Below are positions 30,839 to 42,230 of a stretch of DNA of 64,000 bases, one piece after another. The stretch is from an uncultured Clostridia bacterium (GTDB lineage: Bacteria; Bacillota; Clostridia; Oscillospirales; Acutalibacteraceae): contig CALWVE010000033.1 of NCBI GenBank assembly GCA_944384905.1, positions 1-64,000 of the forward strand, read 5' to 3'. The position numbers and the translations under genes are program-made. Each line of letters starts with the position of its first letter. Position 1 is the first letter of the stretch. The notes beneath the pieces were generated by a model. It saw only the letters and a program-made list of their open reading frames with translations, made no database searches and was not told the origin of the DNA.

Positions 30839-30981
30839 ACAAACTGAGAGTCATTGGCAGATATAAAAGGGAACCCCCGGCGAGGGTTCCCTACGAATCA
30901 ACATCCCCCGGATGTTTGATTCTACCTTCCTGCGCTTATGAAGGCAAAGAAATTCCGCTCTCTGCGGAGAGCGGCCAAAGG

Positions 30982-31036
30982 GTGTTGCTTGCCAGTGGCA
31001 AGCATTGAAACACCGACCGAGCCAGCAGGCAAGAAT
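30982..31036 (+). repeat. Inserted hairpin module A
   Basis: 55 bases directly after AAAGG. With the preceding G it folds as outer stem GGTGTT/AACACC (30981-30986, 31009-31014) and inner stem GCTTGCC/GGCAAGC (30987-30993, 30997-31003) with loop AGT. A 22-base tail from GACCG to AGAAT ends it. The base-paired layout is shared with module B. It is absent from repeat copy 2, where two bases (CT) occupy the site. Confidence 0.8.
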
Positions 31037-31068
31037 CTGCCTTTGGAAACCGCAAACCTTTGAAAAGG

Positions 31069-31124
31069 GCGCCGTGTGCCAGTGGCACACAAGCAAGGCG
31101 CCGACCGCAGCGGCAGCGAAGAAT
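31069..31124 (+). repeat. Inserted hairpin module B
   Basis: 56 bases, again directly after AAAGG. Outer stem GGCGCC/GGCGCC (31068-31073, 31097-31102), inner stem GTGTGCC/GGCACAC (31074-31080, 31084-31090), loop AGT, then a 22-base tail with 16 of 22 bases equal to module A. Compared with A it has three compensatory pairs in the outer stem and two in the inner stem. In copy 2 the site holds only TT. Confidence 0.8.
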
Positions 31125-31162
31125 TGATCGAAACTTTTACGTTTAAGGCTTATCAACAGATT

Positions 31163-31200: not shown

Positions 31201-31527
31201 CTAGTTTAAAATTTCGCGCAGGCAGTCGAGAAAAGCTTCTTCCCCGAATGTGTTGACCTTAAAGAACATCGCCTGGCTGCCGCCGGCCGCAATGGCGGTA
31301 AGATGAATATCTCCGTCTCGGCCGAAAAGCACCACCGTCAGACTAACCCGGTTGCCGCCCATAAAGCTATAGCGTTCAAACACACGGATACTGCATCGGG
31401 TATCGCCCGTTCGGTTGTCGTCCGCTTCTTCCAGGCTGGCCGAAACGCTGCCGTTCACGATCCCGTTTTCGATTTTGTTCAGCCAGTAATCAAAATCACC
31501 CGTTAAGCGTGCTGTCATTTTTGCCAT
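31201..31527 (-). CDS. DUF6054 family protein
   Basis: 108 residues, soluble, alpha/beta. It matches the small Firmicutes family DUF6054 ('ARLTGDFDYWLNKIENGI', 'VLFGRDGDIHLTAIAAGGSQAMFFKVNTFGEEAFL'), of unknown function. The ATG at 31527 lies seven bases after AAAGGGGG; an upstream in-frame start would overlap the preceding gene. Last gene of a channel/beta-helix/DUF6054 group. Confidence 0.75.
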   Translation of the reverse strand: MAKMTARLTGDFDYWLNKIENGIVNGSVSASLEEADDNRTGDTRCSIRVFERYSFMGGNRVSLTVVLFGRDGDIHLTAIAAGGSQAMFFKVNTFGEEAFLDCLREILN

Positions 31528-31540
31528 TGTAAATCCCCCT

Positions 31541-32770
31541 TTATTCGGTCTGCCAGCTTCCGCTTTCAAATTCGGAAGCTCTACGGTAAACGCCTTTCCA
31601 ATAGAAAGAACGATCGGTTACAGGTTCTACGCGATTGCCGGAAAAGACAAACTGATCTTCAGCTTCCGGCGCAACAATTGAATACACCACGGAGCCGTTG
31701 GGCGCTTCACCCAAATGGTTGTCTTCCACTCGGATTTCGCCGCCCGGCGTGGCCTGATCGATCCGCCAGATAAACAGATGGTGTCCCATCGGCTGCGGCC
31801 AGATTTCGGAACGCCGCGGCAAAGTTTCCCCCTGCATAGCAAAGCCCGTTCCAGCGCCTCGGCAAATATTTTTAGAAAATACCGTTCGGCGCGGCATAAT
31901 ATCGCGCACCTCATACGCCGCCATACCGTAACGCTCGCAGGTACAGCCTGTAAAAACGATATCTTCCGGCGGCGGGAACGGCATCTTGCCCTGATGGGTA
32001 AAACAGGAATCGTAGACATCCTGGAAAACACAATTTTGAATTCGCACCTGCCGCGCGCCGTTCCAGAATTCCACACCGTTTCCGAAACGGATTTTCAGAT
32101 CTTTATTCCACACCATACCGCCGATGAACGAGAACGTGCAGTTTTCCAGCGTAATGTCTTCCGCTTTTTCGGCGGCAAACCCATGCACGCCGCTGCCCCA
32201 GAAAGCCAGATCACGGAAAACAACATGTGCTGAAGCCTTGGCTAAAACACGCTCGGCATAAACGGCCGCTTCAATATTCTTCCAGTAAACCGCCGGATTC
32301 TCTGTACAATATAGGTACAGTCTATCCTGCGGGTCGCGCGCTTGATGATGCTGTTCGGTTTTGCCAAACCCAGAATCCCACCAATCGCCCGGATTTTGCA
32401 GTTCTTCGCGGCTCCAGCGCAGCGTACCGCAGCTCGATTCATCAAAAATCAGGTTGCCCGGCTCGCTGGGCAGCGGATGATCCCACATCCATACATTCGA
32501 AGCATATTCTTTCCAGCCCGATGGTTCCGAAAGCGAAACGCTGCCCCGAAACTGCGGCGCATCACCTTCTCCGTAAGCGCCCCACACAATCGGAGCATCT
32601 TTCGATCCTGCCGGTGAATCAATCGCCCCGCGGATCACGCTGCCGCGCCTGAACAAAACGGTATCGCCCGGCAAAATTTTGAGATCTTTCCATGTTTCGC
32701 CCGCAGATTCCGGTGAAAGCGCATTGTTTTTCCTGCTCCCGTTTTCGGGATCAATATAATAAACAGCCAT
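31541..32770 (-). CDS. Right-handed parallel beta-helix protein
   Basis: 409 residues. It starts 'YYIDPENGSRKNNALSPESAGETWKDL', typical of pectate-lyase-like beta-helix proteins of gut Clostridia, and has the repeated pattern 'DITLENCTF', 'VRIQNCVF', 'DIVFTGCTC' (about 205-270). No signal peptide is visible, so it may act on imported oligosaccharides inside the cell or be exported otherwise. The substrate is unknown, and catalytic residues cannot be assigned. It lies between the channel gene and DUF6054. Confidence 0.75.
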   Translation of the reverse strand: MAVYYIDPENGSRKNNALSPESAGETWKDLKILPGDTVLFRRGSVIRGAIDSPAGSKDAPIVWGAYGEGDAPQFRGSVSLSEPSGWKEYASNVWMWDHPLPSEPGNLIFDESSCGTLRWSREELQNPGDWWDSGFGKTEQHHQARDPQDRLYLYCTENPAVYWKNIEAAVYAERVLAKASAHVVFRDLAFWGSGVHGFAAEKAEDITLENCTFSFIGGMVWNKDLKIRFGNGVEFWNGARQVRIQNCVFQDVYDSCFTHQGKMPFPPPEDIVFTGCTCERYGMAAYEVRDIMPRRTVFSKNICRGAGTGFAMQGETLPRRSEIWPQPMGHHLFIWRIDQATPGGEIRVEDNHLGEAPNGSVVYSIVAPEAEDQFVFSGNRVEPVTDRSFYWKGVYRRASEFESGSWQTE

Positions 32771-39397: not shown

Positions 39398-39435
39398 AAA
39401 AAAGGCAGCTTCGTAACGTTCGCTGCGAAGCTGCC
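39398..39435 (-). terminator. Intrinsic terminator of the ZTP riboswitch
   Basis: On the minus strand the stem GGCAGCTTCG (39435-39426) / CGAAGCTGCC (39413-39404) is followed by T6 (39403-39398). Its 5' arm overlaps the last bases of the conserved aptamer CTGGGC, so ligand-bound aptamer and terminator exclude one another. Confidence 0.9.
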
Positions 39436-39500
39436 CAGACGGCCGGCAAAAGAAACTCCTGCTCCCCCGTGGTTTCCCACATATGCCGTCAGTCACAGGA
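39433..39500 (-). promoter_or_regulatory. ZTP (pfl) riboswitch aptamer
   Basis: On the minus strand the pfl-motif signatures occur in order: GTGACTGACGG (39496-39486), GTGGGAAACCAC, GGGGAGC, and the 3' piece CCGTCTGGGC (39442-39433). Pfl-motif RNAs sense ZTP/ZMP and switch on folate and purine genes. The next gene is AICAR formyltransferase, a classic target. Coupled to the overlapping terminator, this is an ON switch by anti-termination. Confidence 0.93.
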
Positions 39501-39512
39501 ATTTACTCTTTA

Positions 39513-41206: not shown

Positions 41207-41214
41207 TCCTAAAA

Positions 41215-41309
41215 ACAGAGTAGGAATATGTGCGTTAAGATCCGCGTGGACGGGGAGTTGCCCGCGGGCGATGGAGTTTTCCAGCGATGCATATTCCGCA
41301 TCCCGCTGT
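41215..41309 (+). promoter_or_regulatory. THF (folT-type) riboswitch aptamer
   Basis: The order matches class I THF riboswitches: closing stem ACAG/CTGT (41215-41218, 41306-41309), AGTAG, stem GGAATATG/CATATTCC, the conserved GCGTTAAG (41232-41239), GGACGGGGAGTTG, a CTGGAG-like hairpin with loop TTTT, and 3' GCATCCCGCT. A structured stretch follows, including CCCGG/CCGGG and TTGTTTTACAAAACAA overlapping the approach to the AAGGAGG site. This suggests control of translation or termination of folT. Confidence 0.9.
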
Positions 41310-41386
41310 AAAACACCCGGTTGCTTTGCCGAAAGGCGGGCCGGGCGATGCGGCGTCTTTGTTTTACAAAACAAGGAGGCTTTTTT

Positions 41387-41988: not shown

Positions 41989-42066
41989 AGCTTATTGAAA
42001 AAGATATGCGTAATTTAACAGCTTATACAAATAAAAAGTTAGAAAAAGCGTTTTCTAGACGAGACA

Positions 42067-42230
42067 GGGAACCCCCGGCGAGGGTTCCCTACGAATCAAA
42101 CATCCGGTGGATGTTTGATTCTACCCTCCTGCGCTTATGGAAGTAAAAGAATTCCGCTCTCTGCGGAGAGTGGCCAAAGGCTCTGCCTTTGGAAACCGCA
42201 AACCTTTGAAAAGGTTTGATCGAAACTTTT
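42067..42230 (+). repeat. Multi-hairpin intergenic repeat, copy 2 (no inserted modules)
   Basis: The same chain as at 30869-31134: GGGAACCC/GGGTTCCC (42067-42089), GAATCAAACATCC/GGATGTTTGATTC, CCGCTCTC-TGCG-GAGAGTGG (a G-T wobble keeps the pair), CCAAAGG (42174-42180) / CCTTTGG (42186-42192), AAACCTT/AAGGTTT, ending TGATCGAAAC. It lies in a convergent gap between folT and a GNAT gene. The rest of the gap, 41989-42066 and 42231-42289, is AT-rich without features. Confidence 0.85.

Follow-up and report, generated by a model that had tools for sequence, protein, structure and literature searches.

The 64,000-nucleotide stretch of DNA analysed here (the window) represents contig 33 of a genome with 42 contigs and 2.19 Mb from an uncultured Clostridia bacterium of the family Acutalibacteraceae. 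It holds two copies of a composite repeat of six hairpins, which differ by whole compensated blocks, and the first copy contains two modules that the second one lacks (Table 1). This raises the question of whether the modules are merely parts of the repeat or small elements with a mobility of their own.

Table 1. Positions, in the window, of the repeat copies, the modules and their helices, with neighbouring genes and two riboswitches also present in the window.
Feature	Position	Strand	Basis or remark
Gene flanking host repeat copy 1	ends 30838	+	
Host repeat copy 1, composite multi-hairpin, intergenic, between convergent gene ends	30868-31140	+	sequence
Hairpin E, 5' arm (CCAAAGG), target of module 1	30975-30981	+	sequence; empty form 42174-42192
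Module 1 (55 nt)	30982-31036	+	sequence; preceded by AAAGG, AGAAT at end
Module 1, P1	30981-30986/31009-31014	+	covariance model, fold
Module 1, P2 (loop AGT)	30987-30993/30997-31003	+	covariance model, fold
Module 1, residual P3 bulge	31004-31008	+	
Module 1, P4 (then end GAAT)	31021-31023/31028-31030	+	
Hairpin E, 3' arm (CTGCCTTTGG)	31037-31046	+	sequence
Hairpin F, 5' part (ending CCTTTGAAAAGG), target of module 2	31054-31068	+	sequence; empty form 42199-42218
Module 2 (56 nt)	31069-31124	+	sequence; preceded by AAAGG, AGAAT at end
Module 2, P1	31068-31073/31097-31102	+	covariance model, fold
Module 2, P2 (loop AGT)	31074-31080/31084-31090	+	covariance model, fold
Module 2, bulge	31091-31096	+	
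Module 2, tail and weak P4	31103-31124	+	
Gene flanking host repeat copy 1	31201-31569	-	
ZMP/ZTP riboswitch	39426-39506	-	Rfam, above gathering score
THF riboswitch	41214-41310	+	Rfam, above gathering score
Host repeat copy 2, both sites empty	42066-42220	+	sequence comparison

An earlier, sequence-only reading of the locus had described two modules that follow AAAGG, replace two bases and end in AGAAT, and a comparison with copy 2 bears this out. Module 1 occupies the loop of hairpin E, between CCAAAGG and CTGCCTTTGG, and module 2 is placed after the AAAAGG of hairpin F, between CCTTTGAAAAGG and TGATC, whereas copy 2 reads CCAAAGG-CT-CTGCC and AAAAGG-TT-TGATC, with CT and TT standing in for the modules. 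The fold ascribed to both, a 6-bp outer and a 7-bp inner stem with an AGT loop and a bulge of 5-6 nt on the 3' side, is likewise found in the sequence and in the minimum-energy structures of modules 1 and 2 (-22.5 and -25.8 kcal/mol; z -3.2 and -2.1). The five compensatory pairs that were claimed are also present: between modules 1 and 2 GGTGTT/AACACC in the outer stem becomes GGCGCC/GGCGCC (three T-A to C-G pairs) and GCTTGCC/GGCAAGC in the inner stem becomes GTGTGCC/GGCACAC (two pairs), and the tails, which fold into a further hairpin (P4), are identical at 16 of 22 positions. The first helix begins one base before the module itself, with the last G of AAAGG paired; in module 1, the last G of the target CCAAAGG pairs with C 31014. 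Modules 1 and 2 match the covariance model described below with 57.8 bits (E 9.3e-10) and 53.2 bits (E 7.7e-9), respectively. They are not chance resemblances: a search of the window with model R1 finds exactly these two modules and nothing else, and a pattern of core plus tail, without AAAGG, has 23 matches in the window genome and none in the reversed-pattern control.

Within the window genome, the modules are tied to the repeat. A BLAST search with a 291-base query gave 58 matches in about 40 places. Five complete copies of module 1 and two that are cut by contig ends all lie in hairpin E, the sites of which are mostly empty; hairpin F holds about 13 copies of module 2 and a related hairpin F' (between CACCTTTTGAAAAAGG and TGGACG) another 6, with at least 18 hairpin F sites empty and about 19 filled. 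Several contigs (C16, C17, C18, C19, C20, C23, C25, C27 and C37) end in or beside module-bearing repeats, which indicates that near-identical copies broke the assembly and that the number of module copies is a lower bound. Because all copies of module 1 reside in hairpin E and all copies of module 2 in hairpin F or its variant, we infer that one old insertion into each hairpin was probably followed by multiplication of the modules as passengers of the repeat. Recent independent movement is thus not shown in this genome, where all copies sit at fixed positions of one repeat. Related high-copy hairpin composites without the module occur in other genera of the family (L082-L103). In many copies, the hairpin repeat is linked to a member of a second family of intergenic repeats (GCCGCGYGACTTGAGCT...GCGAAGTATCCTGCGGCGGTTCGCCGCC; flanks of L005, L011, L012 and L013).

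These patterns could be taken to mean that the modules are passive repeat parts, spread solely by recombination or gene conversion of the composite. The nearly identical copies, all in hairpins E or F, and the contigs that end there are in line with this. However, members of the family have also inserted into phage and tnpV genes, into fragments of tRNAs and into one another, and empty orthologs exist, which refutes the explanation for the family as a whole. It could still hold for the window genome, and overall we regard it as improbable.

The window modules belong to a large, previously uncatalogued family of folded mobile DNA elements. The full element is a three-way junction of helices P1, P2 and P3 followed by hairpin P4 with a GGCA or GACA loop, and it extends from GG to GAGAC in the order P1 (GGTGC/GCACC), P2 (7 bp, loop RGT), a variable P3, single-stranded GACCGA, P4 (3 bp) and GAGAC. 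Many relatives have a full hairpin P3 at the place of the bulge in the window modules, which is the remnant of a P3 that they have lost. The covariance model (R1) rests on 30 members of the family, among them one sequence per module type of the window genome. In the alignment of these 30 sequences, 98% of the cells are paired and double changes occur at 15 of the 21 pairs, in all four helices; the covariation is 0.467, as compared to 0.116 (sd 0.013) when shuffled (0 of 500) and at most 0.096 with slid partners, and a set of 85 sequences aligned to the model agrees. Pairing in P1 and P2 was required at the initial collection, which inflates the paired percentage of these two helices, and P3 and P4 were not selected for. 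Selection on the fold, as previously inferred from the window alone, is thereby confirmed.

A known RNA family is ruled out, in that neither the window modules nor 14 loci had a match in Rfam 15 at the gathering score, and one locus had none at E<=10. No description of the element was found in the open-access literature; subscription journals and preprints were outside the scope of this search. Three further ideas led nowhere: the RGT loop shows no pairing relation to the bases that follow GAGA, no long autonomous version carrying a gene within P3 turned up in the loci examined, and 5' versus 3' truncation is uninformative as a sign of reverse transcription since the loci were chosen by their 3' tail. 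Some 5'-shortened modules (L158, L180, L183 and L197) are preceded by a common stretch similar to TTAAGTTAATGACATTG, a sign that a module remnant may form the base of another composite repeat.

The collected matches extend far beyond the window and its genome. The core-plus-tail pattern without AAAGG was found in 15 of 398 genomes of the taxonomic family, where a single genome holds as many as 95 copies, and its reversed control was never found. The tail alone matches at least 120 stretches of GTDB genomes, mostly from gut and rumen Clostridia, with carriers in Acutalibacter, Neglectibacter, Anaeromassilibacillus and rumen Ruminococcus bins; a few tail-only matches in unrelated phyla lack the upstream helices and serve as a natural negative control. 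Of the genomes sampled from the order, 44 of 394 contain matches to model R1, as do 26 of 391 from the class; in the phylum sample of 398, matches are confined to the window genome and two others of the same class, with none outside the class. The family is also present in phages, and no match to the module was obtained in the plasmids searched.

That the family is mobile is well supported, as inferred from the comparison of sequences; no transposition has been observed. A small phage gene reads GCAGAAGG directly followed by TGAGAGTCC in the empty state (L362) and is 66 nt longer in a form that is 96% identical (L251). A phage holin gene (PF05105) is filled in L246 and empty in L282, and phage C5-methyltransferase genes carry modules at one or two sites in L196 and L252, with empty counterparts in L265, L272 and L273. 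A tandem tRNA-like copy in L231 provides a clean empty site (ACGGGG-CTCG). Furthermore, modules are nested within P3 (L201) or P4 (L237) of other modules, and an identical 63-mer is present at unrelated sites in a phage gene (L252), a tnpV gene (L440), intergenic DNA (L438/L441) and a hairpin repeat (L443). For several sites, the inference of an empty state rests on relatives that are 70-83% identical, and some of the phage insertions share descent. Intact tRNA genes are rejected as hosts: the matches are tRNA fragments, and removal of the module recovers no tRNA. The TnpV gene in L184 (GIW...MNNIQN) looks as if the DNA between two module insertion sites had been deleted, which is what recombination between two modules would produce.

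The empty sites, the nesting and the identical 63-mer support the earlier suggestion of a small inserting element with a site preference, but the preference is not for AAAGG. When the flanks of 109 modules outside the window genome were listed, AAAG(G) preceded only 14 of them, which rules it out as the target, whereas G precedes the GG of the module in 101 and a purine is found one position further back in 107. The target is (A/G)GG. The flanks are complementary over at least six pairs in 31 modules, as compared to about 10 in shuffled pairs, which indicates that hairpin loops are favoured as landing places. No target duplication was seen at pairs of empty and filled sites, and the right junction is loose, varying by 0-3 bases. 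On the left, the GG before the element pairs with the CC that closes P1, and the helix therefore spans the junction. This pairing is consistent with the alignment, but the GG columns barely vary and their covariation carries no information.

All insertions in recognisable genes, namely phage protein genes and tnpV, are in the sense orientation. Nearly all coding insertions are read in one frame after a glycine codon (GGN) and yield GCGCPVDTSAEGRSTDRAGRRD-like peptides, as in tnpV (PF14198), where in-frame modules occur at two positions (L440, L452 and L442), the C5-methyltransferase genes and the small phage gene. Among the phage coding insertions, an empty state could be inferred for five, of which four are in frame (net additions inferred as +66, +66, +63 and +63) and one of +62 breaks the holin frame. 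Module lengths elsewhere show no bias to multiples of three. Splicing of the element out of transcripts was considered and rejected: no one rule of excision would restore every host, and most of the insertions in phage genes are inferred to be in frame in the DNA already. The in-frame insertions instead favour tolerated translation, and they would be tolerable in that the forward frame used is free of stop codons within the element. The translational bypassing elements (byps) are small hairpin insertions in genes, and the bypass in phage T4 gene 60 has a glycine take-off codon. The insertions described here differ from these: they are open, mostly keep the frame and show no matching landing codon.

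In several groups, the phage copies occupy 5' leaders and lie immediately ahead of the ribosome binding site, always in sense (L458, L462, L465, L466, L468 and L471); most of these six leaders have an ACYACCRAAAGG-like stretch on the other side of the module. Together with the strong covariation, such positions might point to a cis-regulatory structured RNA under selection at each site. We find this hardly credible, given the insertions in coding genes, tRNA fragments and other modules, the unrelated neighbours, the up to 95 copies per genome and the lack of an Rfam match.

The orientation of the phage copies also bears on whether the element acts as RNA. Thirteen of the 14 orientable sites are sense to their gene or leader, in excess of what the (A/G)GG composition predicts (composition-corrected P 0.007 if the sites are independent), but some sites share ancestry. 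One could thus imagine an RNA-level element, SINE-like or reverse-splicing, whose folded RNA either enters transcripts or is primed at a nick with a GG end and is then copied back to DNA, and for which the RNA-like three-way junction, the strong covariation and the conserved tetraloop also speak. However, one phage pair (L472/L473) is antisense to its gene cluster, copies in the host repeat lie in both orientations, and the reverse transcriptase domain RVT_1 (PF00078) is absent from six module-rich genomes (G124, G224, G114, G293, G051 and G721), although helpers on phages or plasmids are not excluded. We therefore hold such an element to be unlikely, and see only a slim chance for the version in which the folded RNA enters transcripts directly behind (A/G)GG, where the target GG completes its first helix, and a helper copies it back into DNA. 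If true, this would represent a tiny mobile RNA without a described counterpart in bacteria.

The explanation that we favor, and consider likely, is that the modules are non-autonomous mobile elements of 52-71 nt in the Clostridia and their phages, which, as we infer, enter by a GG-guided single-strand insertion with the help of an unidentified enzyme. The element would move as a folded single strand, either ssDNA or RNA, with the target GG pairing to an internal CC of the element (GCACC then GACCG), so that the finished P1 spans the left junction, and a trans-acting enzyme would loosely join the GAGA(C/A) end to the right flank. The single-strand, GG-guided step taken by itself is an inference in which our confidence is only tentative.

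Among candidate enzymes, a Y1 (HUH) transposase of the IS200/IS605 type or a RAYT could mobilize a miniature element as a REP-like folded ssDNA hairpin with a base-paired target. The subterminal hairpins, the absence of both terminal repeats and target duplication, and the insertion point 3' of a fixed short target (L231, L251 and others), which would pair with an internal guide, resemble the single-strand hairpin logic of these systems; IS608 recognises its target by base pairing (PMC5934647). Y1 genes were present in 8 of 12 searched genomes. However, Y1_Tnp (PF01797) has no match in the window genome (G000) or in the module-bearing G124, G224 and G387. Furthermore, the new element differs from IS200/IS605 in having no ORF of its own, a target GG rather than a tetranucleotide and an imprecise right end, and its stem sequences vary freely within a single genome. 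The REP/BIME repeats associated with RAYT (TnpA-REP) are also high-copy small hairpins without terminal repeats, sometimes within genes, but they have a GTAG/CGTC tag (PMC3733652), whereas parsed copies of the new element end in GG and GAGAC/GAGAAT with no unpaired terminal tag of that kind, and its larger fold has freely co-varying stems. We consider a Y1 or RAYT origin unlikely. The IS110 DEDD transposase (PF02371) was absent from G000, G124, G224, G293, G051 and G721. As a resident mobiliser in all carriers, Y1/RAYT, reverse transcriptase and IS110 can each be rejected, being missing from several module-rich genomes; a phage-borne helper or an unknown enzyme is possible.

Like MITEs, the element is short, non-autonomous and repeated, but with GGTGC at the 5' end and GAGAC at the 3' end it has no terminal inverted repeats, nor does it duplicate its target. 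Since the defining features failed, we did not file it under REP/RAYT or MITE. It resembles the Rickettsia palindromic elements in being inserted both between genes and in frame in protein genes, but these mobile palindromes are about 150 bp and reported from Rickettsia (PMC10969869), whereas the new element is 52-71 nt long, resides in the Clostridia and also in phages, folds as a three-way junction and targets (A/G)GG.

Our findings describe a widespread mobile element of gut and rumen Clostridia and their phages that is smaller than most of those described and has an unusually clear structural signature. By in-frame insertion, it lengthens phage methyltransferases and TnpV proteins by about 21-22 residues. 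With the fold, the (A/G)GG target and a set of genomes without the usual transposases at hand, the question of what moves orphan palindromic repeats becomes directly testable.
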